A DNA stretch of 64,000 bases from Myxococcales bacterium (GCA_012513515.1 JAAZCA010000031.1:1-64000); one strand, 5' to 3'. Shown: positions 7,913 to 61,435, counted from the stretch's first letter. Notes: generated from the sequence alone by a model not told the origin. A program made the numbers and translations.

Positions 7913-7939
7913 TTATCGGCTGAAATGCGAAAATGTTGC
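7913..7939 (-). promoter_or_regulatory. GCAACA-N15-CGATAA promoter before the 187/960-aa operon
   Basis: On the minus strand GCAACA (7939-7934) followed by TTTT is spaced 15 nt from CGATAA (7918-7913; GCCGATAA with two preceding bases). Predicted start to ATG is about 40 nt. The same boxes with identical spacing precede three other loci here, which is the main support. The GCAAC plus T-run upstream element looks like ECF-sigma -35 elements. Confidence 0.65.
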
Positions 7940-7999
7940 CTTAATTCTGCTAGCAGCTCGACGGGAGAATTAGAACGTTTTTCAAATAATATCAGACAG

Positions 8000-8809
8000 T
8001 TAAACCTTATAGCCCCTCTTATCAAAAACCTGTTTTACCTGCGATACGGAGTATATGGCAAAAAGAAGGGCCGGGATGAGGATGGTCAGTTCGCTATAAT
8101 TGAAGCTCTCCGAGAGAGGAAATTTGATCCCCAGGTTGTGGGTGAGAATAGACCAGGCATTATTGAGCGCATGGCAAAATATCGGAGCAACGAGGGTTCC
8201 GCTCTTTTTATATACGATGCCAAAAAACAGGCCCAGGATGAAATAGAGTGGAAAATACCACGGGTTACCGTGCATCGCAGCGAATATCAGAGAGGCCGTT
8301 ATCACCCCAATCCGGCTTCCGAGCTTCGAAGAGAGAGAACCCTGGAAAAATCCCCTGAAATAGATTTCCTCACAGATTCCGGTCAAAAGACAAAATATCA
8401 GAATTTTTGCGGCAAGCTCCCACGGACTTGAAAAATCCATGACCCCTGAAAGCGAATCAAGCACGTGGACAGGCGTATGAAGATACAGATCGGAGAACCA
8501 GACCATGTAGTCGATGAATATGTCCATGCAGAAGGTACCTGCAGCCATGACCAGAAACTGCGACCACGAGGGAACCCTAAAAGGAAATAATCTGCGAAGG
8601 TCGTATCTAAAAAAAACCGCCATCGCCAGAGGAACTCCCGCCATTGCGATGATCTCGTTCAGTGAAACCCCCAGGAGCAAAAACCCCGCTTTGATAACGA
8701 AATAGGGGGCTATCTGAACTGCGGAGACGAAAACCCCCGATAGAAACACCCCCTGAGGAGGAGGAAATGCACTGCCCGGCGCTAAGAGCGTGTCGATTAT
8801 TTTTTTCAT
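8000..8809 (-). CDS. CPBP-family intramembrane metalloprotease (CAAX-like)
   Basis: A 269-aa polytopic membrane protein with the three CPBP motifs: GICEEIYFRG (EE147-148, Arg152), FAAMH (His180) and HALNN (His213, Asn217). These residues form the glutamate/histidine active site of Rce1-like proteases. Several hydrophobic helices span about residues 20-230. The bacterial family has varied, mostly unknown substrates. The nitroreductase ends 14 bp upstream on the same strand, so the two probably share a transcript. Confidence 0.88.
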   Translation of the reverse strand: MKKIIDTLLAPGSAFPPPQGVFLSGVFVSAVQIAPYFVIKAGFLLLGVSLNEIIAMAGVPLAMAVFFRYDLRRLFPFRVPSWSQFLVMAAGTFCMDIFIDYMVWFSDLYLHTPVHVLDSLSGVMDFSSPWELAAKILIFCLLTGICEEIYFRGFFQGSLSSKLGSRIGVITASLIFAAMHGNPWYFPLYFILGLFFGIVYKKSGTLVAPIFCHALNNAWSILTHNLGIKFPLSESFNYSELTILIPALLFAIYSVSQVKQVFDKRGYKV

Positions 8810-8823
8810 CTAGTGAGCATCGC

Positions 8824-9345
8824 CTATTTATAGACTACCACGTCTGACAAATCGAGCCTCGGAGGAACCCTTTTGGCTGGTTCAGCCGGACGACCTATAG
8901 GAAGCATCGCAACCGGCCTGAGTTTTTTTGAAAGCGACAGGACATCCGAAGCTACGGCCTCATCGAAAGCCCCTATCCAGCAGCTCCCCAGATCAAGCGA
9001 CGTTATGGTCAAAAGCATATTCTCTATTGCTGCAGCGGTCTCCTGAATGGAATACAGATCCCTTCCCCTTGCCCCATATCCTCTTTCCGCACGATCGTAA
9101 TCTATGCAGACGACTATTATGACCGGGGCCTTAGCTATGAACAGCTGATGTGCTGCATTTGACGCCAACATCTCCTTCATTTTAGCATCCCGGACGACCT
9201 CGAAATGCCAGCTCTGTCCATTACCGGCCGATGGCGCCATCACCGCGGATTCGAGAACCTGCCTTATCACCTCGTCACCGACATCAAAGGTCGGGTCGAA
9301 CTGCCTCACCGATCTCCTCTTGGATATAGCCTCTCTCAGTTCCAT
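8824..9345 (-). CDS. Nitroreductase-family flavoprotein
   Basis: A 173-aa FMN-dependent oxidoreductase. The N-terminus MELREAISKRRSVRQF carries the phosphate-binding RRSVR motif. APSAGNGQSWHFEVV follows, and near the C-terminus GSCWIGAF and MLPIGRPAEPAKRVPP, all typical of the NfsA/FRP-like fold. Substrate cannot be told from sequence. It probably transcribes into the CPBP protease gene and faces away from the LD-carboxypeptidase gene; the 93-bp gap would hold both promoters. Confidence 0.88.
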   Translation of the reverse strand: MELREAISKRRSVRQFDPTFDVGDEVIRQVLESAVMAPSAGNGQSWHFEVVRDAKMKEMLASNAAHQLFIAKAPVIIVVCIDYDRAERGYGARGRDLYSIQETAAAIENMLLTITSLDLGSCWIGAFDEAVASDVLSLSKKLRPVAMLPIGRPAEPAKRVPPRLDLSDVVVYK

Positions 9346-9438
9346 AGTTCCTCCATAATCACACTAAAATCTGTCGAAGCATTTCTGTCAAGAAAAGAGC
9401 TCTTGGCAAAAGCCTCACTAACGTATTTATATTACGCT

Positions 9439-10353
9439 ATGGACAATCCAAAGGCTTTGAAGGTCGGGGACACCATAGGCGTAGCAGCGTCGGCGAGCCC
9501 CTTTGACAGAAAAAAATTCATCCGGGGAATCCAGTCCCTGGAGAACATGGGGTTCAAGGTATTCTATAGAAGCGATATATTCGATCAGAGCCGATATTTG
9601 GCTGGAACGGACTCGCGAAGGGCGCAGGAGCTGGGCGAACTGTTTTCCAATCAGGAAATATCGGCCATCATGTTCGCACGCGGTGGATACGGAAGTCAGA
9701 GGATAATACCACTTCTCGACGCTGGATTCCTTTCTAAACACAGGAAGCCCGTGATAGGTTTTTCGGATGTTACCGCGCTGCTCACCTATCTTCGTCAGTC
9801 AGCAGGGGTGCCGACATTCTACGGCCCCGTGATTACCTTGCTTGGCAGCACCAGGAGCGAAATAACTGGAAAATCGCTGCTGAATGCTATCACAGCGCAA
9901 GGAGCGCTTGGAAAGATATCCTCGGAACCCGCAAAAACCATAAAGGTCGGCAAGGCATCCGGAAAAATAACGGGCGGCTGCCTCACTATGATAAACTCCA
10001 GCATCGGAACTCCATATGAGCTTAAATTCGAAGACTCGATACTTTTCATAGAAGATATCGGTGAAAAGGTGTATGTCCTAGACAGAATGCTCACACAGCT
10101 CAAAAACTGCGGGGCTCTAGCGAAGGTCAAGGGGATCATATTTGGATCCCTCATTCCTCCGGAACAGGAGCCGTATGACGTGAAATCTATGATCGAGGAC
10201 GTCCTCCGCAATTTTCACGGTCCGGTGATCATGGATTTTCCTGCCGGGCATATCGATGAATTCATAACCCTCCCACTCGGGGCCGATGTGACGCTGGATG
10301 CGCAGGAGGAATCGCCGCCAATCATAACCTATAATTCCGGCATACTATCATGA
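9439..10353 (+). CDS. ldcA: LD-carboxypeptidase (peptidase S66, LdcA-type)
   Basis: A 304-aa serine peptidase that would remove the terminal D-Ala from murein tetrapeptides in the cytoplasm. FARGGYGSQRIIPLLD carries nucleophile Ser86; ILFIEDIGEKVYVLDRML supplies the catalytic Glu and PAGHIDEF the His, completing the S66 triad. I chose the ATG at 9439 because the protein then begins MDNPKALKVGDTIGV as in the family; the longer reading frame upstream lies in the promoter gap and looks non-coding. No strong Shine-Dalgarno is visible. It overlaps the next gene by 4 bp. With mpl two genes downstream this fits peptidoglycan recycling. Confidence 0.9.
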   Translation: MDNPKALKVGDTIGVAASASPFDRKKFIRGIQSLENMGFKVFYRSDIFDQSRYLAGTDSRRAQELGELFSNQEISAIMFARGGYGSQRIIPLLDAGFLSKHRKPVIGFSDVTALLTYLRQSAGVPTFYGPVITLLGSTRSEITGKSLLNAITAQGALGKISSEPAKTIKVGKASGKITGGCLTMINSSIGTPYELKFEDSILFIEDIGEKVYVLDRMLTQLKNCGALAKVKGIIFGSLIPPEQEPYDVKSMIEDVLRNFHGPVIMDFPAGHIDEFITLPLGADVTLDAQEESPPIITYNSGILS

Positions 10354-11489
10354 CAAAAATTATAGACAGAACATTCAAGGAAGCTATCGAGGACGGAGTA
10401 TTCCCGTCTGCGGAAATACTGGTCGCCAAGGGGGATGAAATTCTTTTTCATGAACGATATGGCAATGCCCGCGAGCACACCTGCTTCGACATAGCATCAC
10501 TCACCAAGCCTCTTTCAACCGCGACATTGTGCACAATGCTGCTCGGCGATGGGCTCCTAAAATTTGACGATACGATATACCAGTGGCTCGCGGGAGCGAG
10601 GGAGCCTTTTCACAAGAAGATCACCATTCGTCATCTTCTGAATCATACCTCCGGCCTCGCAGCCTGGCAGCCCTTTTACAGGGAGCTTCCGCTCAGCCTC
10701 ATTGGAACTGAAGATGGTAAAAGAGAAATTCTCGAAAGCTGCTATAGAGAACAGACTGAAAATGAACCTGGAGAAAAAACTCTCTACAGCGACATCGGCT
10801 ACATGATACTGGGGGAAATTCTCGAACAGGCCGGAGACGCTCCGCTCGATTCTATGTTCGCGGATAGAATCGCAAAACCGCTGTTCCTTGCCGACACGTT
10901 TTTCGTAAGAAATACCGGAAGCGATCATTTCCCGAGATCGAGGACGGAAAACACCTCCTCCAGCCACGTTCACGATCCCAACCAGAAGCATCATACAGAA
11001 AAGAAAAGGCGTTTCGCACCAACTGAGGACTGCCCTTGGCGAAAACGGGTGATACACGGCGAAGTCCACGATCAAAACGCATACGCCATGGGTGGCGTGG
11101 CAGGCCATGCAGGACTTTTTTCCACAGCTCAGGATATCAACACCTTAACAGCAGAGCTGGTCAAATGTATAGATAACAAATCGTCTTTAATTCCGCCTGA
11201 AATAGCTTCTGAATTCATCGGTAAGAAAAAAGGCAAGTTGGCCGGGGAGGAATTCGTGCTGGGATGGAACCTGCCTTCCCGCAGAAATTCGGCTTCAGGA
11301 CATTTTTTCTCTGCGAGCTCGATCGGACACTTGGGGTTCACCGGCTGCTCGATATGGATCGATATTGAGGCCGGTTTTCGGATAATACTTCTCACGAACA
11401 GAATTCATCCGACGCCGATGAATGAGAAGATAAAATCCTTCAGGCCAAGAATTCACGATCTTATCTATAACGAGCTCCTTTCCGGCTGA
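10350..11489 (+). CDS. Beta-lactamase-fold serine hydrolase (S12 / class C-like)
   Basis: A 379-aa protein with the S-x-x-K motif SLTK (Ser50, Lys53), the second motif YSDIGYM, and a late HLGFTGCSIWID in place of the KTG box. GEVHDQNAYAMGGVAGHAGLFS is characteristic of the EstB/S12 esterase-peptidase group. There is no signal peptide, so a cytoplasmic role is likely. The ATGA overlap with the LD-carboxypeptidase and the nearby mpl suggest it acts on murein peptides or amino-sugar derivatives. That is context, not proof, and the substrate is unknown. Confidence 0.85.
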   Translation: MTKIIDRTFKEAIEDGVFPSAEILVAKGDEILFHERYGNAREHTCFDIASLTKPLSTATLCTMLLGDGLLKFDDTIYQWLAGAREPFHKKITIRHLLNHTSGLAAWQPFYRELPLSLIGTEDGKREILESCYREQTENEPGEKTLYSDIGYMILGEILEQAGDAPLDSMFADRIAKPLFLADTFFVRNTGSDHFPRSRTENTSSSHVHDPNQKHHTEKKRRFAPTEDCPWRKRVIHGEVHDQNAYAMGGVAGHAGLFSTAQDINTLTAELVKCIDNKSSLIPPEIASEFIGKKKGKLAGEEFVLGWNLPSRRNSASGHFFSASSIGHLGFTGCSIWIDIEAGFRIILLTNRIHPTPMNEKIKSFRPRIHDLIYNELLSG

Positions 11490-11612
11490 TCATCAGCTTG
11501 CCGTAACGCACTTTTGCTACTCACAGCGTAACCTGGCATAGCCCCCTTTTGGCTTGATTTAAGCTTTCCCATAAACTAAAAATCTTAAAAAGTTCAAACA
11601 CTTGTGGATCGT

Positions 11613-11647
11613 CAGCCCTATGGAAAAGCGTAGGACCGGAAGGGCTG
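11613..11647 (+). other. Hairpin in the mpl leader
   Basis: A 7-bp inverted repeat CAGCCCT (11613-11619) / AGGGCTG (11641-11647) with a 21-nt loop lies 25 nt before the mpl ATG and just upstream of its AGGGG ribosome-binding site. It could be a leader structure. I do not recognise a riboswitch class, and the downstream arm is not followed by a U-run, so it is not an intrinsic terminator. Confidence 0.3.
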
Positions 11648-11672
11648 CGCAGCTCTATAAAAGGGGAACGAG

Positions 11673-26110: not shown

Positions 26111-27622
26111 ATGAAATTCGTCACAACCCCGGAAGAAAAAGTTCTCGCAGACAAGTGCGATATTCTGGCCATCGGATGCGTACAATCCAAATTAAAAGGT
26201 AAAACTATACCTTCCTTCGGGCAACTTTTAAAAATATCTGACGAAAAACTTTCCGGCGAATTGATGAAACAGACCAGGGTCGAAAAATTTACGGCAAAAA
26301 AATCCACATCGATGACGCTCTTCTCGGCAGGGCTCGTAGCGCCGAGGTACATAATGCTGTATGGGCTGGGCGAACGTCAGGAAATATCCCTCGACGACAT
26401 AAGAAATTTCGCTTCCGCCGCAACCCGCAGCACCGAGAAAATCCACGGCAAGAAATGCGCAGTAGTCCTGCCCAAACTTCCATCATCCATCGAGCTTCCT
26501 GATGCGGCACGTGCAATAGCCGAAGGGACGATGCTAGGCTCGTATGCTTATGAAAACTACAAGAGCGACGAAGATGACAAGCACGAACGGGTCACGGAGG
26601 TTTCAATCACCATCGATCGCCCGTCGGAAAAATTCAAAAAGGCACTCGATTTCGGCGCAGCTCTGGCGGAGGCAACCGTTCGCGCGCGCGATATGATAAA
26701 CACACCCGCCAACTATATGACCCCGTCGCACCTGATCGTCGAAGCGAAGCGCATAGCCAAAACAGCAGGGCTCTCTTGCACGGTCTATGACAAAAAACGC
26801 ATGGCTGATGAAAAGATGGAATGCATACTCTCGGTGGCAAAAGGCTCTGAGGAACCTCCCGCCCTGATAATCCTCGAATATTGCCCTAAGAAAAAACCGA
26901 AGAAGCACGTTGTTCTGGTCGGGAAGGGAGTGACATTCGACGCAGGCGGAATTTCGTTAAAGCCTCCACAGGGGATGCCGACGATGAAGGATGACATGGC
27001 TGGGGCGGCCGCCGTCATCGCCGCGATGTCAACGATTGGAAATTTCAAGCCGGGCATAAAGGTGACAGCTATCATCCCGGCTGTTGAAAATCTTCCCGAC
27101 GGAAAGGCGCTGAAGCCAGGCGACATAATCCGCGCAAAAAACGGCAAGACGATAGAGATCATAACGACTGATGCCGAAGGGAGGCTTATCTTGGCCGATG
27201 CCCTGGTTCTGGCCTCCGAAATGAAGCCCAGCGCGATAGTCGATCTAGCGACGCTGACCGGTGGCGCGCTTTACTGCTGCGGCGAGCTCTATTCGCTTAT
27301 CATGGGAAATGACGAAAGGCTGATCGCCAAAATGATGGCTGCGGCGAAGAGTTCCGGCGAGCCAATGTGGCAACTCCCGATGGTAGAGGAGTACAAAAAG
27401 GGTTACACATCCGGAATCGCAGACCTGAAAAATTCCGGCAAGAGCAAGGCACAGACAATAATGGGGGCTATTTTTCTTCGCGAATTCGTGGACGAAAAAA
27501 TTCCGTGGGCGCATATCGACATCGCCGCGTCCAGCTGGACCGAAGAAAAACTCCCGCTTTCTGATCTCGGCGGCACTGGCGCGATGACAAGATCGCTCAT
27601 CGAATTTGTGATGAAGTTCTAA
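26111..27622 (+). CDS. pepA: Leucyl aminopeptidase (M17, PepA)
   Basis: A 503-aa cytosolic metallo-exopeptidase. Metal ligands and catalytic residues appear in order: VLVGKGVTFDAGGISLKP (Lys and Asp), MKDDMAGAAAV (Asp), and ITTDAEGRLILADAL (Asp, Glu, and Arg of the NTDAEGRL signature). The N-terminal macro-like domain (residues 1-165) and family length are normal. A GGAGG ribosome site precedes the ATG. It forms hexamers and trims N-terminal residues from peptides; in some bacteria it also binds DNA. Confidence 0.95.
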   Translation: MKFVTTPEEKVLADKCDILAIGCVQSKLKGKTIPSFGQLLKISDEKLSGELMKQTRVEKFTAKKSTSMTLFSAGLVAPRYIMLYGLGERQEISLDDIRNFASAATRSTEKIHGKKCAVVLPKLPSSIELPDAARAIAEGTMLGSYAYENYKSDEDDKHERVTEVSITIDRPSEKFKKALDFGAALAEATVRARDMINTPANYMTPSHLIVEAKRIAKTAGLSCTVYDKKRMADEKMECILSVAKGSEEPPALIILEYCPKKKPKKHVVLVGKGVTFDAGGISLKPPQGMPTMKDDMAGAAAVIAAMSTIGNFKPGIKVTAIIPAVENLPDGKALKPGDIIRAKNGKTIEIITTDAEGRLILADALVLASEMKPSAIVDLATLTGGALYCCGELYSLIMGNDERLIAKMMAAAKSSGEPMWQLPMVEEYKKGYTSGIADLKNSGKSKAQTIMGAIFLREFVDEKIPWAHIDIAASSWTEEKLPLSDLGGTGAMTRSLIEFVMKF

Positions 27623-28950: not shown

Positions 28951-28977
28951 GCAACTAATTTGAAAAATTGACGATAA
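28951..28977 (+). promoter_or_regulatory. GCAACT-N15-CGATAA promoter before the 234-aa gene
   Basis: GCAACT (28951-28956), a 15-nt spacer and CGATAA (28972-28977, preceded by GA) lie 23 nt before the ATG at 29000, in the divergent gap with the DUF2400 gene. Spacing and boxes match the copies at 7913, 46681, 61333 and 61409. Confidence 0.65.
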
Positions 28978-28999: not shown

Positions 29000-29704
29000 A
29001 TGCCGCCAAAAATCAATATCAAAAGGAGTCTGCTCGGCGGATTGGTCCCCAATGAGTTTCAAACCGACGTGGCCCATATGGTCGATTTCGCTCATAACGG
29101 CCTCCCTTTACAGCTCATCCGAAGTGGAGAGCCGGTCGAGCCGATACATCAAGATCATAAGATAGCGAAACACAACAACTGCAACGGCAAGGAGGAGTGT
29201 CTCGCCGATCACTATTTCGGAAGTTTTTTCGATGTGAAAATCGGAATATCCGAACCGCCCCCCAGAATCGCAGCCGCAATCTTTGAAGATAGGACAACGG
29301 CCCTGAAAACCACCGAAAGATACCCAAAAAGCTACATCGAATCGTTGATGATCTGCCCGAGGCCTGCGGCGTTTAACACCGGCGCACACAGGATCGTGGT
29401 AGTCTTCTGGACCTCAGCTGAAAGATTTGCCGCGGCCTTCGAGGAGGGGGGGAGCCCTCTTCGCCCCAAAGATGAAAACTTCTTCGTTGACGGCCTGACT
29501 CCCAAGGCGGAGGAGATGCTCCTAAACCCTATATTCATAGAAAATCAACTTCTCCCCTCCATCGTCGAGGCGATGACGGGCCAGCAACTTTTCAAGGATG
29601 CACATAATTTCTTAATAAAAGTAAACAATCCCTCCAAGAATTCAGGCCACACCGGTCACTGGTTTGAAGGGTGCCGCCCTTCTAACTTGATGTATAAATA
29701 TTAA
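29000..29704 (+). CDS. Unknown 234-aa protein
   Basis: No family recognised. The ATG has a GGAGGAG ribosome site 9-10 nt upstream and a promoter motif shared with other unknown genes, so it is a real gene. It is soluble, without a signal peptide or membrane segment. Mixed composition includes His/Cys spots (KHNNCNGKEEC near residues 57-67) and a central strand-like HRIVVVFWTSAERF. A glycine/histidine-rich tail (SGHTGHWFEGC) ends it. Nothing indicates a catalytic function. Confidence 0.7.
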   Translation: MPPKINIKRSLLGGLVPNEFQTDVAHMVDFAHNGLPLQLIRSGEPVEPIHQDHKIAKHNNCNGKEECLADHYFGSFFDVKIGISEPPPRIAAAIFEDRTTALKTTERYPKSYIESLMICPRPAAFNTGAHRIVVVFWTSAERFAAAFEEGGSPLRPKDENFFVDGLTPKAEEMLLNPIFIENQLLPSIVEAMTGQQLFKDAHNFLIKVNNPSKNSGHTGHWFEGCRPSNLMYKY

Positions 29705-29835: not shown

Positions 29836-32493
29836 TTAACGAGGTTTTTTAGGATTCGCGCCCATGATCCTATTCGCCCAAGATTGTGTGCGTTCTATAA
29901 AGCGCCTTTCTACTCCATCAGCAGATACGATTTGAAGAGAACCCACACCTTTGATCTTCATCTTGGATCTTATGATCTTCTCAACGTTATCCCTGCTCAT
30001 GCCCCCAGTAAGTGGGATCCTCACCTTGAACTTCCCTGTCGGGGTATCTTCTAAATCACACCAGTCTATCTTCACGCGATCATTTAACAGAGCTTCGAGC
30101 ACGCTTTGCATAACTCCCTTATCTGCAAATTCTGTTCTCTCGACCACAACATCCATAAATGTGACTTTGCCCACGTAGGGAGGGGGGGTGCCCCTGTAGG
30201 AATCCTCGAGCGTGGAGAAAAATTCGTCCACCGCCTCCAACTTGCTAGGCTCGTCGATAGGCATCTCGAATTCAAGCAAGGCCTGCTGTGATTCTCCAAC
30301 CCTTTCGAATTTTACGGATGAAAAAGAAAGCCCGTAGTCAAACGCCGACAAAAGTATGTTTTTGAGAAGCGATGAGTCGTGACGAAGGAGAAGTCTGGCC
30401 GAAACTTTTTCGTTACGATCGTAACGCGTAAAAAGTATCGAATTCGCCATTATCCTGCTCTTGACTTCGTTGACAAAATCCTGCCGCCAAGCTCCAGAAG
30501 TTTTAGAAATTTCAGAAGCTTTACGAAAAGCCCCAAGCGTTATAAAGAACTCTTCCTCAGTTTTGAATCCCAATCTGCGATAGAGACGCTCAAACGAAAA
30601 AAGGAAGGTCGGGCTGGCAGTCCCAAACTTCCTTCCCCCCTGTGAATTTATGAGCTCCTCCTTCACCTCGGATGATATCCTAGCCAGCTCAGCCTTGCCA
30701 TGTCCGGAAAGGTACTCCTTATTTATCTTTCTGGGATCAAGCGAGAAATTCTTCTCTGCGACGGTTGCAGCATATAACATCATCGCCCTGGCGTAGGGGG
30801 TTTTCACAATATGGATCCTTGTGGGAAATATAGAATGGCCCCTCGTTTGGAAATCGAACCTCTGACCGGATTCGATACGGGACTCAAGTTTTTTGGACGA
30901 ACCTTCCAAAAAACCCACATCGGCATAGAGAGCGGAAAATGCGTCCCTCGCAAAGGCGGCGTCAAGCAGGGATGGTTTTCTATCTTGGCTGCCGGTAACG
31001 ATCTTCAAAATCTTTCCGTTGGAGTCATCGATGACGAAAAAAGTTCCGGACGAATGAATCCCATCTTTTTTCGCTTTAAACAGGGTTCTGGGAGGGTCTA
31101 TGTCCGACGAGGTCGTTAGCTGCACCGTTTCCCCTGTTTTATAAGCGCCATGAGCTGCGGAACCGAACTCGGCATTCATGTGCATGGCCGACGTTCTTAC
31201 CTGTACCTCCAGGAGATATCCGCTGGAATCCTTATAATAGGCGTGTAGGGACTTATACCCGTTTGCCTTTTGTTTAACATAGATGTAGTCGTCGTAATGC
31301 TCAGGTAGATACTCCCAGCCGCGGGCGGTGAAATAAGCTTTGACCTCCTCCATCGCCTCGTAGCACATTTCGTCGCGATCGTCATTTATTATGATCCTAA
31401 TTCCGTTGGTATCGCGGTTATTCCCCTTCTTATCACGTCTGACACGGGCACTGACAGTTGTCTTCATGCGATGCTCGATATAGTGACCGATGCCTTTAGC
31501 ATCCAAAGCATCCCTGAGCTCCCTTGAAATTTCTTCCAGCCTGGCATTGGACGATCTCCTATCCATGCCGACCTGCTTGCGGAGATGTTCTTCCATTTCC
31601 TCGTAAGAGAATGGCTCCAGATGCCGGAATGCGACGTCCTCGAGGGTTCCTCCATCCTGGCTAAAACCGAAATATTTCAGTATCTGCGATGTGACGAAAC
31701 GAGATCGCTGCATCTTCTCCTCGCTCTCGCGGTCGAGGCCGGAAGAAGGGCGCTGAGATAAAAGCCCTGCGTCGACTGTGTCCTGAGCCGCGAGAAGCAT
31801 CAACTCCTCGTGGCTGTTCGAAATCGCGAATAGAAGGCTCATGAGACGGCCGTACTGATTCTTGTCAGACCAGTCGCAGGTAAAGGATTTTGTCCTCTCG
31901 AGCTGGCTCAGTAATTTTTTAACCTCCGATTTACCATTCCCGGAGATAGAATAATCCTTCTTTCCGGAGATCAGCGCGGCGGCGATCGCGGGAGTGGAGG
32001 AGTCCCAGCTGGCGAGTAAAAACGCACATCGCAAATTTCTTATTTGGCTATCGGTGGAAAGAGTGGAAAGGTTATCAAGCGCACTTCTGACAAGTTTGAG
32101 GTCCTTATGCCCCAGCTTTTCGAGCCGTTCGAGGAGCTTCTTTTTCGGCTCAGAGGTATCATCGGGATCATGGTCAGGAAAACCATAAAGCCCCGCAAAA
32201 ATCTCTGAGGACTTCAATGCAGCGCTGGCAGCGGCATCGCCGGAGGAAAAGATCGCAGCCCCGGATCCCGCATCGCCTGCAAAGGCCATCGCGTGAGATG
32301 GAGCAAAGATTGATCCGGCGGAAATGCCATGCGGCGCACCATGAGCGAACCTTTTGCAAAAATTTTTAACCTGGCAAATGGTGAAAACTGGAGCGCTTGA
32401 GCTCCCAGCCTGCCCGGCGAAAGCCACAGGAGCGAAAGAGGCAGGCGTTGCGGCAAAAGGAAAATTAAAAGGCTTAAGCACAGGAAAACGCAT
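29836..32493 (-). CDS. Degenerate long RelA/SpoT homolog
   Basis: An 885-aa protein. The ppGpp synthetase domain is at about residues 335-450: RDTNGIRIIINDDRDE, ANGYKSLHAYY, and EVQVRTSAMHMNAEFGSAAHGAYK with the catalytic Glu of EVQVRT. Before it a helical region (about 165-290, ending EDVAFRHLEPFSYEEM) aligns with the RSH hydrolase/linker, but the HDxxED and ADRLHNMR hydrolase motifs are absent, so hydrolysis is unlikely. A TGS-like region follows (about 460-570). The N-terminus is low-complexity Ala/Gly/Ser. I start at ATG 32493 (AGGGG 4 nt upstream); the open frame to 32712 runs into intergenic repeat. Product could be (p)ppGpp or another alarmone. Confidence 0.75.
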   Translation of the reverse strand: MRFPVLKPFNFPFAATPASFAPVAFAGQAGSSSAPVFTICQVKNFCKRFAHGAPHGISAGSIFAPSHAMAFAGDAGSGAAIFSSGDAAASAALKSSEIFAGLYGFPDHDPDDTSEPKKKLLERLEKLGHKDLKLVRSALDNLSTLSTDSQIRNLRCAFLLASWDSSTPAIAAALISGKKDYSISGNGKSEVKKLLSQLERTKSFTCDWSDKNQYGRLMSLLFAISNSHEELMLLAAQDTVDAGLLSQRPSSGLDRESEEKMQRSRFVTSQILKYFGFSQDGGTLEDVAFRHLEPFSYEEMEEHLRKQVGMDRRSSNARLEEISRELRDALDAKGIGHYIEHRMKTTVSARVRRDKKGNNRDTNGIRIIINDDRDEMCYEAMEEVKAYFTARGWEYLPEHYDDYIYVKQKANGYKSLHAYYKDSSGYLLEVQVRTSAMHMNAEFGSAAHGAYKTGETVQLTTSSDIDPPRTLFKAKKDGIHSSGTFFVIDDSNGKILKIVTGSQDRKPSLLDAAFARDAFSALYADVGFLEGSSKKLESRIESGQRFDFQTRGHSIFPTRIHIVKTPYARAMMLYAATVAEKNFSLDPRKINKEYLSGHGKAELARISSEVKEELINSQGGRKFGTASPTFLFSFERLYRRLGFKTEEEFFITLGAFRKASEISKTSGAWRQDFVNEVKSRIMANSILFTRYDRNEKVSARLLLRHDSSLLKNILLSAFDYGLSFSSVKFERVGESQQALLEFEMPIDEPSKLEAVDEFFSTLEDSYRGTPPPYVGKVTFMDVVVERTEFADKGVMQSVLEALLNDRVKIDWCDLEDTPTGKFKVRIPLTGGMSRDNVEKIIRSKMKIKGVGSLQIVSADGVERRFIERTQSWANRIMGANPKKPR

Positions 32494-32503: not shown

Positions 32504-32530
32504 TTCTCGGCTTCCTGCAAAAAAAGTTGC
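32504..32530 (-). promoter_or_regulatory. Possible degenerate GCAACT-N15-CGAGAA promoter
   Basis: On the minus strand GCAACT followed by T6 (from 32530) has the exact 15-nt spacing to CGAGAA (32509-32504), one mismatch from CGATAA. The start would leave only about 4 nt before the chosen ATG, so either the site is fortuitous or the RSH-like gene starts further in. Confidence 0.25.
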
Positions 32531-32680
32531 GTACTTCTTTCGGGGAGGCAAACGATTCGCGCCACTATAAAAAAGATACATATCAGCGACTTAACCGGTT
32601 CGGCCAGTCCATGCAAGCGAAAATACTTAAGTAACCTCCGAAAAATCAGCAAATTCAGAGCGCCTCTAAAAACCATGCGC

Positions 32681-32895
32681 TTGTCATCCCCGAGTGACGG
32701 AAAGGTCGTCATCCCCGAATGACGAGAAGGTTGTCATCCCCGAGTGGTATAATCGGGGATCCCGCAACAGCCGTGAAGTGGGAAAAACAGAAGCTAGAAG
32801 CTAGAAAAACCTCGCCTGTAGAAATCTCGCTTCTCGCTTCCAGATTCCAGCTTCTTGATGTTTTGGTCGATGGTCAATCGTCCATGGTCGAAGTT
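32681..32895. repeat. Mosaic intergenic repeat copy (long, inverted order)
   Basis: Three tandem TTGTCATCCCCGA-type units lead into GTATAATCGGGGATCCCGC, then AGAAGCTAGAAGCTAG, CTCGCCTGTAGAAATC, CCAGATTCCAGCTTCTTGA and GGTCGATGGTCAATCGTCCA. The second half is the reverse complement of the element at 41912, indicating movement in both orientations. The rest of the gap to 33082 has no gene that I can see. Confidence 0.85.
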
Positions 32896-46680: not shown

Positions 46681-46707
46681 GCAACATTTTTTGGACTCCG
46701 ACGATAA
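46681..46707 (+). promoter_or_regulatory. GCAACA-N15-CGATAA promoter before the subtilase
   Basis: GCAACA followed by TTTTTT (46681-46692), then CGATAA (46702-46707, preceded by GA), 42 nt before the GTG start. Identical boxes and spacing to 61409-61435, with even the flanking TC and GA bases shared. Confidence 0.7.
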
Positions 46708-46748: not shown

Positions 46749-48890
46749 GTGAAAGTTCTGAAGCTCTTTCTCTGCGTATTGTGCTCCATCCAAGTCGCGC
46801 TGGCATCGGCATCTGCTCTGGCCAATCCAAAAATAGATTCCTTTATAAAGACCTCCAAACTCCGCAAGAGCGCGGTTTCATACAAGGCGCTTTCCATGAA
46901 AGCCTCTGTAAAATCTGAAGATTCCGAAATGGTGGAAGTCTTTATAAAGAGCTCCGATCCGGAGTCGACAAAGTCAAAAATTAAAAGGGCCCAGGGGTGG
47001 GTACACACCTCAACCGATTCGGTGATCACGGCTTCTATCGCCAGCGACTCGCTGGAGTCGATCGCCGAATCGGAGGAGGTACAGTTCATTGAAGGCGGCA
47101 AGCCAATCGGAAAGAGCAATGACAAGGCAGCAATTGAAATCAACGCTGGAGAGGTCAGCAAAAGTCTGAATCTTCCCGAAGGCTATACCGGAGAGGGAGT
47201 GATCATCGGAATCATCGACACCGGGATCGACTATTCCCACGCCGATTTTAAAGACGCCGAAGGGCGCAGCCGCATCATATCGATCTGGAATCAGATGCAC
47301 TCCGGCGGAAAATCTCCCAGCGAAATCGAAAACAGCTTTGGAACGGAATGTGATTCCGATTCGATAGCTGACGGAAGCTGTCCCCTCGCGGATTCCGATG
47401 GACATGGAACCCATGTCGCCGCCACCGCGGCAGGAAGCGACGAGACCTACAGGGGAATTGCTCCCGACGCCAACATAATAGTTGTCAGCTACGACTCCAG
47501 CGTTTCGATGGACACGGGATATGCCAAGCCGATCTTTTCAACAAAAATCTGCCAGGCCGCTTATTACATCTTCAAAAAAGCCGACTCGTTAGGCATGCCG
47601 GCCGTAATCAACTTGAGCCTTGGGACCCACATCGGGTCGCACGACGGGTCATCACTTTTCGAATCATGCCTCAGCGAATTGCTGAAAGACTCCGCGGGTC
47701 GCGCAATAGTTGCGGCCGCCGGAAATGAATACACCGAAGGCAAAAACGGATTCACAGGAATACACGTCGGAGGCGAGATAAGCGAAACGACTGCCTCGAA
47801 CTTCGTCATAAGAAGAATAACATCCGACAGGATATATTACATAGACCTATGGGGATCGAAGGGAAGCGATCTCTCAGTTGGCCTCGCATTTCACAATGGA
47901 CGCGCAGGAGGAACGCCTGAAAAATTTTCGGGCCTCGTTGAAATGGGGGCGAGTTCAAGCGGATCGTTTCTCGACGGAAAGATAAATTATGTTATCAATT
48001 TCACCGAAGAATCGTCAGCCTTAAATGGCAAGCCGCATGCCGGCATAAGGATAATGGTCGATCCATCGCTAAACGATATTTCCCGGCACAGCTTCGATCT
48101 CGTAGTCTCAGGAAACGGGTCTTACGATGCATGGCTCTTTCCGGACAAGCCGTCAGAGACGATACAATTTACAGATTTTCAGGGCGGCGCCAACACATGG
48201 AATTACGTGCCGGGGGACAGCATGAAGAGCATAGCGATGCCCGCCACATCCCCTGAAGTTATCGCCGTAGCCGGATACACAACGCGCAACAGCTGGAACA
48301 GAGGCTCCGGATGCTGCGAAGTAGCCTTCAATCTCGGAGCCATACTCGATTTCTCGAGTTCAGGCCCCAGCGCGGATCCTTCAGCTACAGGCCAGAAGCC
48401 AGAAATAGCAGCGCCGGGCGGAATGATAGCCTCCGCGCTATCCTCGACGGCGACTCACAATAGCCTGATGATCATGCCCGATGGCAAACATGCTCTCCAG
48501 GCCGGCACCAGCATGGCGGCCCCATTTGTGACGGGGACAATCGCTCTGATGTTCTCAGCCGATTCCAACTACACCCACGATGACGTAAAAAAATACATAG
48601 TCGAAAGCGCCTACGTCGATGAAGACGTTGGCGAAGCTCCCAACAACAGATGGGGTTTTGGAAAACTCGACGTGCTGGCCGCACTCGAAACAGCGATCAA
48701 CGGAGGTTCATCCGGCCGCTTCGACGGGAATCAAAGCCTCAGCGAACCTGAAGGCGCAGGCGCTTCCGGAGGAAGCCTTGGTTGCACGCTCTCCTCGGAG
48801 GTGAGCGGATCCGACAAAAAGATAGTCTTGGCAGGAATGTTCTTCATCGCAGCGGCCCTGATAGCGGCGAGAAGGCGTTCGATGAGATAG
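46749..48890 (+). CDS. Subtilisin-family (S8) protease with a MYXO-CTERM-like C-terminal anchor
   Basis: A 713-aa exported protease. GTG start after AGGGGG; signal peptide through ASALA. Catalytic triad: Asp157 (IIDTGIDYSHADF), His219 (SDGHGTHVAA), Ser588 (AGTSMAAPFVTG), with Asn326 (AAAGNEY) as oxyanion residue. The N-terminal segment (30-135) would be a propeptide-like domain. The tail carries a Gly-Cys pair (G678 C679), a hydrophobic helix (IVLAGMFFIAAALIAA) and RRRSMR, the pattern of MYXO-CTERM sorting signals cut by a myxosortase. That suggests surface anchoring. The promoter is the GCAAC-CGATAA type. Confidence 0.92.
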   Translation: MKVLKLFLCVLCSIQVALASASALANPKIDSFIKTSKLRKSAVSYKALSMKASVKSEDSEMVEVFIKSSDPESTKSKIKRAQGWVHTSTDSVITASIASDSLESIAESEEVQFIEGGKPIGKSNDKAAIEINAGEVSKSLNLPEGYTGEGVIIGIIDTGIDYSHADFKDAEGRSRIISIWNQMHSGGKSPSEIENSFGTECDSDSIADGSCPLADSDGHGTHVAATAAGSDETYRGIAPDANIIVVSYDSSVSMDTGYAKPIFSTKICQAAYYIFKKADSLGMPAVINLSLGTHIGSHDGSSLFESCLSELLKDSAGRAIVAAAGNEYTEGKNGFTGIHVGGEISETTASNFVIRRITSDRIYYIDLWGSKGSDLSVGLAFHNGRAGGTPEKFSGLVEMGASSSGSFLDGKINYVINFTEESSALNGKPHAGIRIMVDPSLNDISRHSFDLVVSGNGSYDAWLFPDKPSETIQFTDFQGGANTWNYVPGDSMKSIAMPATSPEVIAVAGYTTRNSWNRGSGCCEVAFNLGAILDFSSSGPSADPSATGQKPEIAAPGGMIASALSSTATHNSLMIMPDGKHALQAGTSMAAPFVTGTIALMFSADSNYTHDDVKKYIVESAYVDEDVGEAPNNRWGFGKLDVLAALETAINGGSSGRFDGNQSLSEPEGAGASGGSLGCTLSSEVSGSDKKIVLAGMFFIAAALIAARRRSMR

Positions 48891-49408: not shown

Positions 49409-49425
49409 CAAGAACAAACATAGAA

Positions 49426-51654: not shown

Positions 51655-51681
51655 GCGCTAAAAAGGATTAAGGTAAATGGT

Positions 51682-52683: not shown

Positions 52684-52733
52684 AGGGACGATGCCCTAAC
52701 ATCGCACAGGGTTGGAGTCAACCATCTCAACCA

Positions 52734-52762: not shown

Positions 52763-52769
52763 CAGCCCT

Positions 52770-53111: not shown

Positions 53112-53201
53112 TCCGCTGCTCGAGATTAGATGGTCGAACCTCGAATGCTCCGTAATCAATTGCTATTGCAAGAATTCCCCGCCGGGTGATAAACATTCGG
53201 C

Positions 53202-53567: not shown

Positions 53568-53575
53568 AATTCCTT

Positions 53576-53660
53576 TGTCATCCCCCGAATGTTTTTATCC
53601 TCCGCCTTTGGCGGGGCAGGCGGGAATCCACCAACTGCCGTTCTGGACAAATGGGAATCC
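53576..53660. repeat. Mosaic repeat copy
   Basis: TTTGTCATCCCCCGAATG, an internal CCGCCTTTGGCGG hairpin and GCGGGAATCCACCAAC, a diverged version of the CCCGC...GCGGG module. Confidence 0.7.
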
Positions 53661-53714
53661 ATCGCCTAAAATGCCCCGTCTTTAAACAGGTCCAAATCCA
53701 ACAGGGGGAATGAT

Positions 53715-56264: not shown

Positions 56265-56272
56265 ATTGTTAG

Positions 56273-56390
56273 AACGGGATTCCCGCCTAAAGCATGCGGG
56301 AATGACTGCGCACTGAAAGGTTGTCATCCTCGAGTAGTGAGAAGGTTGTCATCCCCGAATGATTTTATCGGGGATCCAGCAACAACCGCA
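56273..56390. repeat. Mosaic intergenic repeat copy
   Basis: CGGGATTCCCGCC and CATGCGGGAATGAC palindrome, GTTGTCATCCTCGAG, GTTGTCATCCCCGAATG and ATCGGGGATCCAGCAAC. It fills the Lon/M42 gap. Confidence 0.85.
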
Positions 56391-56412
56391 ACATGCGAAA
56401 GGTAAAAATATC

Positions 56413-57486: not shown

Positions 57487-57535
57487 ACATTTTAAAATTA
57501 TTTAATACTGCATCTTGATTCTTAATCTTCATCTT
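57422..57535. repeat. Direct repeat flanking the Fic islet (left copy)
   Basis: This 114-bp segment (last 22 codons and stop of the M42 gene plus ATTTAATACTGCATCTTG-type 3' sequence) is repeated without mismatch at 58824-58937. Similarity continues with changes into the pyrimidine-rich CTTAATC repeats to about 57575. Confidence 0.9.
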
Positions 57536-57707
57536 TATCTTTATCTTAATCCTGATTCTGATCTTAATAACGATATTTTCGAATATAAGTTAGTTTTACA
57601 AATGCTGATCAAAGATCAGCGATCAGGATTCGCCCCCTCCCGCAACAACCGTGACTGGTGACTCGTATTAAAATTTGCTCGACCATCCGGCAGTATTGGT
57701 AAGCACA
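57536..57707. other. Pyrimidine-rich simple repeat and mosaic fragment, no gene
   Basis: Degenerate TCTTTATCTTAATCCTG-type hexamer repeats (to about 57575), an inverted repeat GCTGATC-AAA-GATCAGC (57604-57620) and a mosaic fragment CCGTGACTGGTGACTCGT (57650-57667). Confidence 0.55.
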
Positions 57708-57741
57708 TTTACAATCGTCTAACTATCGTCTATAATTAGAC
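57708..57741 (+). promoter_or_regulatory. Fic promoter with overlapping operator palindrome
   Basis: TTTACA (57708-57713), 17-nt spacer, TATAAT (57731-57736), near consensus. The palindrome GTCTA-TAAT-TAGAC (57728-57741) covers the -10 box, and ATCGTCTA occurs twice just upstream. The start is predicted 1-2 nt before the ATG 57745, so the mRNA is probably leaderless. Confidence 0.6.
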
Positions 57742-57744
57742 TAT

Positions 57745-58779
57745 ATGTTACAGCCCAAGTATAGCGTTTCTGATAAATTACTTAATAATATCAAGACTAT
57801 AGCAGTGATATGCTCAGAGCTTAATAATCAGGCATTTGCCAAAACAATACTATCTAGTTTTGAGGCAAAGGCTAATTCCCTCTCTGCATATTCATCCACG
57901 AGCATTGAAGGAAATCCAATCCCCCTTACGGATGTCAAAAGACTTATTAAATCAAAACCGGAAAAGATCAGAGATACCGAGCGGGAGGTGCTGAACTATA
58001 ACAGCGCCTTTGAATACCTTAAAAATGAAATTGCTGGCGGTCAAATATCCATAAGTGAAAAACTGATCTGCACTATCCAAAAGAAAATTACCGAAGGGCT
58101 GATCGAAAAGCACAGATGTGGAAAATTCAGAACTGAACCTGTTTTCGTAAACGACCCCAGAACGGGAAAGCCGGCATATCTCCCTCCCGACCATCAAGAT
58201 GTTGGCAAGCTGATGAAAGAATTATTAGATTTTGTAAAGCAAAAGCGTGGCAAGATCGATGCGCTCATTCTGGCCGGAATTTTTCACAAGGAATTTGTGA
58301 TCATTCATCCGTTTGTAGATGGTAATGGTAGAACTGCAAGACTAATCACAAAAGCACTTCTTGCAGATATGGGGTTGAACACATTCAATCTCTTCAGCTT
58401 CGAAAATTATTACAACAGAAATGTCACCAAATATTTTGTAAAGGTTGGAGCGCTTGGTAACTTTTACGATATTGGAAACGACCTTGATCTTACAGAATGG
58501 CTGGAATATTTTACCGATGGAATAATAGATGAGTTGTTGCGCGTTAAAAAGGAGCTCTCTGCCGAAACTATTTCACCTAAAACCAAACTATTTCCCCATC
58601 ACAACAAGATTCTCGATTTTATAGATCGCAACGGATTCATAACGGATAGGGACTATTCAAAGCTGACCAAGCGTGCAAAGGCAACCAGAGCTTTGGATTT
58701 TAAAAAGTTGATGGAACTTGGACTTATTAAACGCTTTGGCAAAGGACGAGCGATTCATTACAAGAAAAAGACAAGATGA
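57745..58779 (+). CDS. Fic-domain AMPylase-like protein with N-terminal inhibitory motif
   Basis: A 344-aa Fic/DOC protein. The active-site motif HPFVDGNGR (188-196) is complete (His for attack, Asn/Gly/Arg for phosphate binding). STSIEG at residues 51-56 fits the (S/T)xxxE(G/N) self-inhibitory helix of class II Fic proteins. A winged-helix region at the C-terminus (NKILDFIDRNGFITDRDYSKLTKRAKATRALDFKKLMELGLIKR) may autoregulate. Codon use is AT-richer than neighbours, and the gene is bounded by 114-bp direct repeats, so it was probably acquired. Fic proteins usually transfer AMP to a protein; target unknown. Confidence 0.9.
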   Translation: MLQPKYSVSDKLLNNIKTIAVICSELNNQAFAKTILSSFEAKANSLSAYSSTSIEGNPIPLTDVKRLIKSKPEKIRDTEREVLNYNSAFEYLKNEIAGGQISISEKLICTIQKKITEGLIEKHRCGKFRTEPVFVNDPRTGKPAYLPPDHQDVGKLMKELLDFVKQKRGKIDALILAGIFHKEFVIIHPFVDGNGRTARLITKALLADMGLNTFNLFSFENYYNRNVTKYFVKVGALGNFYDIGNDLDLTEWLEYFTDGIIDELLRVKKELSAETISPKTKLFPHHNKILDFIDRNGFITDRDYSKLTKRAKATRALDFKKLMELGLIKRFGKGRAIHYKKKTR

Positions 58780-58823
58780 AGCCGGGCGTTTTTTTGCCTG
58801 TGTCGAGATTGCGTGGCCCCCAC

Positions 58824-58937
58824 ATATCTTCAAGAAAAAACTCGCCCCGCTATGGAAAAATTACAGGGATCTGAAAAAGAAATTATAAACATTTTAAAAT
58901 TATTTAATACTGCATCTTGATTCTTAATCTTCATCTT
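58824..58937. repeat. Direct repeat flanking the Fic islet (right copy)
   Basis: The 114-bp copy of 57422-57535 begins ATATCTTCAAG and contains the M42 3' end, including its TAA, now a non-coding remnant. Confidence 0.9.
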
Positions 58938-59131
58938 CGTCTTTATCTTAATCTTGATTCTTAATCTTAATCTTGATTTTGTTGTACTTAAATATGATGG
59001 TGAGATTCCTTCGTTTTTAAGCTTTGATTATAATGAGGAATGAGTTTGGTAAAAAAATGTTATAAATAGATAAAGTGTTTGCCCCGCGCCCGTGCGGCTG
59101 ATATAGCGCTGCGAGACAGTCAGGAGGATTT
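58938..59131. other. Gap upstream of tryptophanase, AT-rich simple repeats
   Basis: CTTAATCTTGATTC-type simple repeats continue to about 58980, then AT-rich sequence with TATAAT at 59029-59034 but no clear -35. No TnaC-like leader peptide is evident. A CAGGAGG ribosome site precedes the ATG. Confidence 0.45.
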
Positions 59132-60505
59132 ATGGTCAGAAAAGTCGTCCCATATAAGATCAAGATCGTAGAGCCGATAGCGCTGCTATCCCGCGAGGAT
59201 CGCGAGGCAAAGATTTCCGAGGCAGGGCTCAACATTTTTCGCCTCAGATCTAAGCACGTCTACATAGACCTTCTCACCGATTCGGGAACCGGCGCGCTCA
59301 GTCAGGAGCAGCTTTCACAGATGATGATAGGGGATGAATCGTATGCTGGATCCGAGTCCTTCTTCAGGCTGGAGAAGGCGATCCGCGACATCATGCATCT
59401 TCCTTACGTGATCCCGGTCCATCAGGGGCGTGCGGCAGAACAGGTTCTTGATTTCACTCTTGTAAGGGAAGGGCAGGTCGTCCCCGGCAACACGCATTTC
59501 GACACGACCAAGGCGCATATCGAATTCCGCGGAGGGCGAACTATAGATTGCACTATCGCGGAGGGGCGCGATTCGACGGTGATGTATCCGTTCAAGGGGA
59601 ATATAGATATGAATCTCCTCGAGCATGCGTACAAAAAGTATGGCCGTGAAAAGATATCGTATGTTCTCATAACGGTCACGTGCAATTCCGGCGGGGGGCA
59701 GCCGGTCTCGATGGAAAATATCAGGCAGGTTTCGAGCTTCTGCGCCGAGAAAGGGCTGCGCCTCTTCTTTGACGCCGCGCGTTTCGCGGAAAACGCCTAT
59801 TTCATACAGCAGCGCGAACCGGGCTACGCCGACAAATCTATAAAGGGAATCGTGCGCGAGATGTTTTCATATGTCGAAGGATGTACGATGTCGGCGAAGA
59901 AGGACGGCCTCGTTCCGATCGGCGGTTTCCTCGCCCTGCGCGATGAGAAACTCTATGAAGAGATGAAGCCCACGGACATCCTCTTCGAGGGTTTCTACAC
60001 CTACGGCGGAATGAGCGGCATGAACATGGATGCGATGGCGCAGGGGCTTTGCGAGGTCGTAGAGGAAAGTTATCTAGCGCACCGCATAGGTCAGACATCA
60101 TATCTCGGCGAAGAGCTTACTAAGAGGGACGTTCCGATAGTGAGGCCTGTCGGAGGTCACGCTGTATTTATCGATGGGAGAAGATTTTTCCCGAACGTTC
60201 CAGAAAGCGAATTTCCCGCGCAGCTTCTCGTTGTGGAGCTATATCGCGAAGGCGGAGTGAGGGCGGTAGAGGTCGGCTCATGCCTCGCTGGTCGCGATCC
60301 CGATAGCGGAGATAACATCCGTCCAGCCCTTGATCTATGCAGACTTACGATCCCGAGGCGCGTTTACACCGAGGAGCATTTCGATTACGTAGCCGACGTC
60401 GTTGACGAGGTTTTCAAGAAACAGCGAAGCAGAAAGCGCGGCCTCGGATTCGATGTGGAGACCAAGGGAATTCGCCACTTCACGTCGACGTTTAAGGAGT
60501 TGTAA
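59132..60505 (+). CDS. tnaA: Tryptophanase (tryptophan indole-lyase) family enzyme
   Basis: A 457-aa PLP-dependent beta-eliminating lyase. IDLLTDSGTGALS, GDESYAGSESF, HQGRAAEQ, FDAARFAENAYFI, the PLP lysine in MSAKKDGLVPIGG, and the C-terminal LTIPRRVYT match the tryptophanase/tyrosine phenol-lyase family over full length. GVRAVEVGSCLAGRDPDSG matches tryptophanase (GIRAVEIGSFLLGRD) rather than tyrosine phenol-lyase (SMERG with Arg), and SAKKD rather than SGKKD. It would make indole, pyruvate and ammonia. The Fic islet lies upstream and a repeat array downstream; no permease is adjacent. Confidence 0.85.
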   Translation: MVRKVVPYKIKIVEPIALLSREDREAKISEAGLNIFRLRSKHVYIDLLTDSGTGALSQEQLSQMMIGDESYAGSESFFRLEKAIRDIMHLPYVIPVHQGRAAEQVLDFTLVREGQVVPGNTHFDTTKAHIEFRGGRTIDCTIAEGRDSTVMYPFKGNIDMNLLEHAYKKYGREKISYVLITVTCNSGGGQPVSMENIRQVSSFCAEKGLRLFFDAARFAENAYFIQQREPGYADKSIKGIVREMFSYVEGCTMSAKKDGLVPIGGFLALRDEKLYEEMKPTDILFEGFYTYGGMSGMNMDAMAQGLCEVVEESYLAHRIGQTSYLGEELTKRDVPIVRPVGGHAVFIDGRRFFPNVPESEFPAQLLVVELYREGGVRAVEVGSCLAGRDPDSGDNIRPALDLCRLTIPRRVYTEEHFDYVADVVDEVFKKQRSRKRGLGFDVETKGIRHFTSTFKEL

Positions 60506-60589
60506 ATCAACGTATCTTATAATTACTCAGTGATGATTGCGAATATAATCTTTTTAAAATCCTAAATTGTCGTCGCCGCGACGGGAAAA

Positions 60590-60747
60590 TCCCGTTCCAA
60601 CCGTTCACCACTCACCAGTCACGGTCGTTGCTGGATCCCCGATTACACCATTCGGGGATGACACTATGAATGTCATTCCCGCGGCATTAAGCCGCCGCTA
60701 CCGCGGGGTTCCAACCGCTCACCAGTCACCAGTCGCGAGTTACGGCA
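60590..60747. repeat. Mosaic intergenic repeat copy (60506-60843 gap)
   Basis: Modules CGTTCCAACCGTTCACCACT, GTCACGGTCGTTGCTGGATCC, CCGATTACACCATTCGGGG, the 44-bp core inverted (60672-60714) and CCAGTCACCAGTCGCGAG. Otherwise the gap holds only the cdd ribosome site GGGGAGG. Confidence 0.88.
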
Positions 60748-60843
60748 GTCCCCACTTGCGCCTTACATGGTATAGTTATAATGATAGCGCAGCATGCTAT
60801 TATCCGTTGGCGCATGAGATGCACCTCAACCGGGGAGGATTCA

Positions 60844-61236
60844 ATGTCAATGACCGACAAAGAGCTCATAAAAATCGCGACGGAGGCGAGAAAAAAGGCG
60901 TATGCGCCGTACTCAAAATTCAAGGTGGGAGCGGCACTTCTTTGTAGCGATGGCCGGGTTTTTACCGGCTGCAACGTCGAAAATGCCACGTATGGCGCCA
61001 CCTGCTGCGCCGAGCGCACCGCCATATTCAAGGCCGTCTCGGAAGGGGCGCGCGAATTCCTTAAAATAGCGGTGGTGACAGGGAGTTCGCATATCGATTC
61101 GCCGTGCGGGATATGCCGGCAGGTCCTTTTTGAATTCACCCCCGACCTCAGGGTCATAATGGCAAATACTAAAGGAAAATCAGCAGGTTACACCATTAAA
61201 AAGCTCCTCCCCGCCGCATTTTCACTGAAAAAATAG
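60844..61236 (+). CDS. cdd: Cytidine deaminase
   Basis: A 130-aa tetrameric Zn deaminase converting cytidine to uridine. TGCNVENATYGATCCAERTAIF contains Cys-Ala-Glu (zinc ligand and proton shuttle), and SPCGICRQVLFEF supplies the other two Cys ligands. Typical length for the short Cdd group. I start at ATG 60844 because GGGGAGG is upstream; the longer frame enters the repeat. It salvages pyrimidine nucleosides. Confidence 0.95.
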   Translation: MSMTDKELIKIATEARKKAYAPYSKFKVGAALLCSDGRVFTGCNVENATYGATCCAERTAIFKAVSEGAREFLKIAVVTGSSHIDSPCGICRQVLFEFTPDLRVIMANTKGKSAGYTIKKLLPAAFSLKK

Positions 61237-61237
61237 C

Positions 61238-61275
61238 CCCCTCCTCGGGGGAGACAAGCCGTTTGTGCCCCCGGA
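61238..61275. repeat. Palindromic repeat P after cdd
   Basis: CCTCCTCGGGGGAGACAAGC and CGTTTGTGCCCCCGGAG form a hairpin immediately after the cdd stop codon. Confidence 0.65.
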
Positions 61276-61332
61276 GCATACCGGGGTGAAATACGCCGCC
61301 AAAAATTTTCTCAAAAATTGGCATTTTTTTTA

Positions 61333-61359
61333 GCAACTAAACCACAGAGGGATCGATAA
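61333..61359 (+). promoter_or_regulatory. GCAACT-N15-CGATAA promoter, upstream copy
   Basis: GCAACT (61333-61338) preceded by a T-run, 15 nt, CGATAA (61354-61359). Lies 76 bp upstream of the second copy; together they precede the 452-aa gene. Confidence 0.6.
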
Positions 61360-61408
61360 CACTGCGGTATAGCGCTTTTGGATAAAGCGCTGAAGGGAAA
61401 GAAAGTTC

Positions 61409-61435
61409 GCAACAAATAATTTTTTCGGACGATAA
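61409..61435 (+). promoter_or_regulatory. GCAACA-N15-CGATAA promoter, downstream copy
   Basis: GCAACA (61409-61414), 15 nt containing TTTTTT, CGATAA (61430-61435, preceded by GA). Predicted leader to the ATG 61504 is about 60 nt. Confidence 0.7.

Follow-up and report, generated by a model that had tools for sequence, protein, structure and literature searches.

The 64,000-nucleotide stretch of Myxococcales bacterium DNA analysed here (GCA_012513515.1; hereafter the window) carries repeated copies of the motif GCAACW-N15-CGATAA (W being A or T) ahead of its genes. We conclude that this motif is very probably the promoter of a holoenzyme containing a sigma-28 (FliA/WhiG)-related factor, the gene for which belongs to a type III secretion system (T3SS) operon of the same genome, and that it drives a scattered set of targets for which, in most cases, no protein family can be assigned.

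Five exact copies are present in the window, one on the minus strand at 7913..7939 (GCAACA-N15-CGATAA) and four on the plus strand at 28951..28977, 46681..46707, 61333..61359 and 61409..61435, the last two being the distal and proximal members of a tandem pair. All five are intergenic and each faces a gene, in agreement, down to coordinates and strands, with a first-pass annotation made from the sequence alone. The promoter-to-start distances, which that annotation had placed at 20–145 nucleotides (nt), were measured as 22 nt (gene for a protein of 234 amino acids, aa), 41 nt (subtilase, GTG start) and 45 nt (187 aa), and as 68 and 144 nt for the tandem pair relative to the 452-aa start at 61504. 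Its estimate was that some 0.02 copies would be expected by chance; dinucleotide shuffles yielded an expectation of 0.04, and none of 100 shuffles reached five copies. A sixth copy (32504..32530, minus strand) was missed by the exact pattern, its -10 element being CGAGAA with one relaxed base, and lies 13 nt ahead of a gene for an 884-aa protein, the actual start of which is probably 32490. A one-mismatch match at 26221 was discounted as it sits within the leucyl aminopeptidase gene. A short repeat of the TCATTCGGGGATGAC type was noted in three near-copies upstream of the sixth promoter, at 32660-32760.

Because the motif was found post hoc, independent tests in the rest of the genome and in other genomes of the class carry particular weight. 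In the 1.79 Mb genome the exact pattern occurs 33 times, split 17 to 16 between the strands and with 28 of the copies beyond the window, while the pattern read backwards gives none. All but one of the 33 are intergenic and nearly all of these are positioned just ahead of a gene, a result which speaks against an even spread over coding DNA and which, through this enrichment ahead of genes, supports the earlier proposal of a coordinated set of dispersed genes under a sigma-type promoter. The remaining copy (C20:40480) is situated within a convincing gene for a zinc-ribbon protein, an orthologue of which, in genome G005, has a copy of the motif within its own coding sequence as well; this may represent a coding coincidence or an intragenic promoter. 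A relaxed pattern, with CGANAA as the -10 and no restriction on the base that follows GCAAC, produced 49 matches in this genome as against two for the control. The spacer following GCAACW is strictly 15 nt, with 33 matches compared to none for the control, while other spacers of 11–19 nt return zero to three.

Bases that formed no part of the search are also conserved across the 33 sites, which are A-rich 5–9 nt upstream of GCAAC, T-rich in the four to five bases after it and carry a G at the eighth position past CGATAA, a promoter-like anatomy from which we would place the transcription start approximately 8 nt past CGATAA. CGATAA itself was fixed by the search, but in five genomes of the same order GC directly precedes it at 43 of 113 sites versus seven expected, thereby restoring the full sigma-28 -10 element. 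The composite site, GCAAC(T/A)TT-n11-GCCGATAA, shares its length (27 bp from the start of the -35 element) and its register with the Escherichia coli sigma-28 consensus, TAAAGTTT-n11-GCCGATAA (PMC2859248). The TAAA of the sigma-28 -35 element is, however, absent, GCAAC being found in 33 of 33 sites, and the site is thus a variant promoter class rather than a canonical FliA promoter, in which the -10 and the T-tract are of the sigma-28 type and the -35 is not. The first-pass annotation stated that CGATAA is not the housekeeping -10; its sigma-28 identity had gone unrecognised.

A Pfam Sigma70_r2 scan of the genome, which is 99.3% complete, retrieved only RpoD, RpoH-like and FliA/WhiG-like proteins and no gene for an extracytoplasmic function (ECF) sigma factor. 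The third of these sigmas, of 293 aa, is encoded on contig C17, after SctJ and ahead of a FliG-like gene. Its best family among NCBIfam models is the curated FliA_WhiG model (131.5 bits, below the cut-off of 189.6), and its best solved relatives are WhiG and FliA. Region 2.4 is FliA-like, with RI(K/R)GA-x2-D-x-LR retained, while the T3SS-linked sigmas possess a region 4.2 of their own, SKSW(T/A/V)SRLHARA, in place of the FliA type; this pairing of a diverged region 4.2 with a FliA-like region 2.4 is what would be predicted from a motif with a changed -35 and an unchanged -10. In a phylogenetic tree the T3SS-linked sigmas of the class and of Myxococcota are split from flagellar FliA with support of 100/100, the flagellar branch including the FliA of flagellated class members. 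One class genome (G043) encodes a second, divergent sigma with a T3SS-type region 4.2 (SKSWASRLHDRA; L247, contig C241) as well as a second FHIPEP gene, and a duplicated T3SS-sigma system is possible there.

The operon on C17 has the order SctJ, x141, SIGMA, x166, FliG-like, SctL-like, SctN, SctQ, SctR, SctS, SctT, and the genome holds a non-flagellar T3SS set comprising SctV, SctN, SctJ, SctR, SctS and SctT. Its sole FHIPEP protein is SctV, scoring above the hrcV cut-off and below that of FlhA, and no flagellin was found in the genome. All three secretins reside on contigs other than that of the T3SS operon, the two inspected being Tad- and PilQ-like, and no needle family was detected among the operon proteins scanned. 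When an injectisome is defined by a secretin, needle and translocon in the locus, the system does not qualify as one and instead resembles those of Myxococcota (PMC3459982). The FliG-like protein (L014:8331-9389) contains FliG_C and FliG_M domains and, together with a FliM-like SctQ, is unusual for a T3SS without a flagellum, and both are kept across the class. A Tad/Flp pilus locus is present on contig C36 (L241:5500-12813; TadE/G-like, CpaB, secretin, CpaF-type ATPase and T2SSF protein). Tad is the partner of the needleless T3SS (T3SS*) in Myxococcus predation (PMC10849154, PMC12075869), and the co-occurrence of the two has been stated to be confined to Cystobacterineae (PMC10849154).

Enrichment of the motif extends throughout the uncultured class, which may be GTDB UBA10199 and whose named members are ‘Deltaproteobacteria bacterium’ metagenome assemblies, several of them from groundwater. 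Each of the 46 class genomes contains 8–84 copies, with 0–3 for the control, while beyond the class the motif is no more frequent than background, except near one relative. Motif and sigma are co-distributed: orthologues of the sigma were identified in 42 of the 46 genomes and, outside the class, only in Myxococcota, and in every class locus with readable neighbours the sigma occupies the same T3SS gene order. Its closest relatives beyond the class (37–42%) derive from Archangium and Myxococcaceae, many of them visibly beside SctJ/SctN/SctR. Ten Myxococcota genomes (7–10 Mb) with the sigma have one to six motif matches each, and in most of these genomes matches fall within the T3SS/sigma locus. 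In Archangium an intergenic match is located 61–75 nt ahead of a 185-aa gene in this locus, and in Myxococcota a second match overlaps the end of the sigma gene, 23–32 nt ahead of the next gene, where GCAAC and CGA(T/C)AA are present in 12 of 12 readable homologues.

The gene context in the window's own genome was examined in the stretches around motif matches, and more than half of the approximately 32 first genes encode products without a Pfam family. The recognised targets include SET-domain, subtilase, glycosyltransferase, AAA, DnaJ-PilZ, TPR, thrombospondin-3 repeat, GGDEF and uridine kinase family proteins, and a lipoprotein that weakly matches a PHP domain. Conservation of the site before orthologous targets was evident: it is kept upstream of eight of eight subtilase orthologues in the order, with spacer bases that vary, as opposed to none of 12 more distant homologues, and is also kept upstream of the DnaJ-PilZ and PHP-domain lipoprotein orthologues of other genera. 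Effector-type domains (SET, RelA/SpoT and alpha/beta-hydrolase) occur behind T3SS-like N-termini, the SET-domain target on C17 having as its closest NCBIfam model a Legionella secreted SET effector, at a score far below the cut-off of that model. T3SS substrates are known for serine-rich, polar N-termini (PMC3338616), and among targets that lack a signal peptide the combined Ser, Thr and Pro fraction over residues 1–50 is 0.235 compared to 0.161 for other genes (p=1e-5), with a value of 0.229 (p=1e-6) in the targets of relatives. Serine alone separates targets less well, while the targets of this genome could not be told from its other genes by an acidic-residue or a no-acid-in-12 criterion. 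About a fifth of the targets appear to be exported by Sec. On these features we infer that many targets may be T3SS substrates delivered to prey or host.

Two adjacent targets on C17 (L012:1492-4722), of 698 and 279 aa, have different bodies and a near-identical N-terminus, MTI-x-GTGAPFGLASTAFI-x-NAV, which looks like a reusable export signal; each has its own promoter copy, one of which has C at the W position. On contig C15 (L021:7300-7443) an exact promoter copy has no open reading frame of at least 60 aa behind it and is followed first by a strong hairpin (z -2.9) and then by an antisense stretch resembling a transfer RNA, possibly a small RNA of the regulon.

Several observations weigh against a regulon of T3SS-linked genes under this sigma. 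The T3SS apparatus genes of the genome are without the motif, and among the targets are proteins that are not effector-like (uridine kinase family, GGDEF, lipoproteins). Four class genomes (G006, G024, G025 and G041) retain the motif with no sigma detected; these also lack the SctR of the operon though SctV is present, making them weak counter-examples, and the absence of the sigma is likely, though not proven, to reflect an assembly gap. The site at the sigma gene end in Myxococcota overlaps conserved codons and its conservation could be partly at the protein level, although the Gln codon at this site is CAA in 12 of 12 cases, CAA otherwise being the minor codon in these genes (14%, with CAG at 86%). 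Orthologues share ancestry, so that site counts are not independent, and the assignment of start codons followed a simple rule.

The most substantial rival accepts a genuine sigma-28-type promoter and regards the regulon as a general control of surface or lifestyle, such as attack phase or attachment, most of the family-less targets not being T3SS substrates. The Sec-signal proteins among the targets and the apparatus genes without a site, in addition to the non-effector-like proteins named above, would fit such a role, and the Ser/Thr/Pro bias is indicative only. We nevertheless consider it a minority possibility given that the sigma is housed in the T3SS operon wherever class loci can be read, that SET, RelA/SpoT and alpha/beta-hydrolase domains follow T3SS-like N-termini, and that the Myxococcota copies of the motif fall inside the T3SS locus. 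Use of the motif by RpoD or RpoH, perhaps with an activator at GCAAC, is improbable: both sigmas are present in the genome and the four genomes without a detectable FliA-like gene of this type could be so explained, but these sigma types are widespread whereas motif enrichment is confined to the range of the T3SS sigma lineage, and the invariant spacing and sigma-28-type -10 also disfavour it. It is still less probable that the motif is the binding site of a transcription factor, such as an AraC-type or response-regulator T3SS master regulator; conserved-box regulators of T3SS regulons are common (HrpG/HrpX, for example), yet the motif is asymmetric, nearly always faces a gene, shows a -35/-10 geometry identical to that of sigma-28 promoters and is accompanied by an A-tract resembling an UP element and a preference for G at +8. 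The ECF (group 4) sigma suggested by the first-pass annotation is scarcely credible despite the resemblance of GCAAC followed by T to ECF -35 elements and of scattered targets with a T3SS link to the HrpL regulon (PMC4149516), as the Sigma70_r2 scan found no such gene, the length and register of the motif agree with those of the sigma-28 consensus, and a CGATAA preceded by GC is a sigma-28 element, unlike the hrp box GgAACc-N16-17-CCAN.

The analogy with HrpL-like control drawn in that annotation proved closer than was ventured there, in that the only plausible sigma gene lies in the T3SS operon and many targets are T3SS-substrate-like, while the factor itself would be a relative of sigma-28 and not an ECF sigma. 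Under the preferred sigma-28-related factor, region 2.4 would read the -10 GCCGATAA in the manner of FliA and the diverged region 4.2 would read GCAAC instead of TAAA. The active sigma would bind and turn on 30–50 scattered promoters when the T3SS is to be used, giving mostly family-less proteins with T3SS-type N-termini as well as secreted or lipoprotein enzymes, and effectors and surface enzymes encoded across the chromosome would thereby appear together. As the apparatus genes have no site, the machine itself is probably made from another promoter. The sigma may be held inactive by an anti-sigma factor that is exported through the T3SS, as FlgM is through the flagellum, but this is a guess by analogy. 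A predatory or epibiotic life is plausible since the T3SS lacks an operon secretin, as in Myxococcota (PMC3459982), and a Tad locus is present; a eukaryotic target would likewise be in keeping with the SET domain.

Among known systems, FliA of E. coli and Salmonella is similar with respect to promoter length, register, T-tract and -10, sigma region 2.4, the tie to a type III export system and the control of scattered genes, and differs in its TAAA -35, its region 4.2, the score of the present sigma below the FliA/WhiG cut-off, and a linked machine which here is a non-flagellar T3SS with no flagellin found. HrpL of Pseudomonas syringae is likewise a dedicated T3SS-linked sigma with one sharp consensus at many scattered effector and non-effector promoters, but is an ECF sigma with a different box and also transcribes the T3SS apparatus. 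Chlamydia, which has a T3SS and no flagella, also possesses a member of the sigma-28 family, although its regulon consists of two unrelated genes, hctB and tsp, which are not effectors (PMC10597470, PMC12282069), and chlamydial T3SS-associated late genes are instead tied to sigma-54 (PMC7482065). The T3SS* of Myxococcus and Archangium, associated with Kil in predation, shares the homologous sigma gene, motif copies in the T3SS locus, the lack of a T3SS secretin in the operon and Tad genes elsewhere, but with its few and mostly local copies it differs from the dozens scattered in the window's class; a 2025 study of T3SS* makes no mention of a sigma in its main text (PMC12075869).

We think it reasonably probable that a sigma-28-family factor with a re-specified -35, having split from the flagellar one, is a dedicated T3SS regulator in two phyla, local in predatory Myxococcota and expanded to dozens of scattered effector genes in the class, where its promoter would act as a barcode of the effector repertoire. 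Sigma-28 promoters, HrpL-type regulons and T3SS* are already known; the literature searched describes neither this promoter nor a factor of the sigma-28 family with T3SS effectors as its dedicated targets. Since effectors have no sequence in common, those of uncultured lineages can hardly be seen at all, and if the promoter marks effectors then a single 27-bp pattern would list up to approximately 80 candidates per genome across the class. If true, this would imply that a sigma-28 lineage departed from the flagellum together with its export machine and came to control a needleless T3SS, and would predict a testable regulator of the T3SS* used in Myxococcus predation, a system in which we found no sigma factor described.

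In the window, the minus-strand copy at 7913 precedes a two-gene unit in which a 187-aa gene (7304..7867) overlaps a 960-aa gene (4425..7307), both on the minus strand and without a Pfam family, and a PDB sequence search with the 960-aa protein gave no convincing match to solved structures. The 234-aa target (29000..29704, plus) likewise has no Pfam family. The 884-aa target (29836..32490, minus, with its start re-assigned to 32490) has a RelA/SpoT synthetase domain at residues 354-454 and an effector-like N-terminus rich in Ser, Pro, Ala and Phe, while the 713-aa subtilase (Peptidase_S8; 46749..48890, plus) has a signal-peptide-like N-terminus. The tandem pair precedes the 452-aa target (61504..62862, plus; ATG at 61504, ribosome-binding site aaaggagg), the 473-aa form of which matches no Pfam family, and the following gene (62900..64000, plus), which runs off the window and is also without a Pfam family, probably shares its transcription unit. 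Elsewhere in the genome, a spurious open reading frame on C36 (L242:263-535) with FNPRARTGRD/SIHAPARGAT repeats is a typical sign of an array of clustered regularly interspaced short palindromic repeats (CRISPR).

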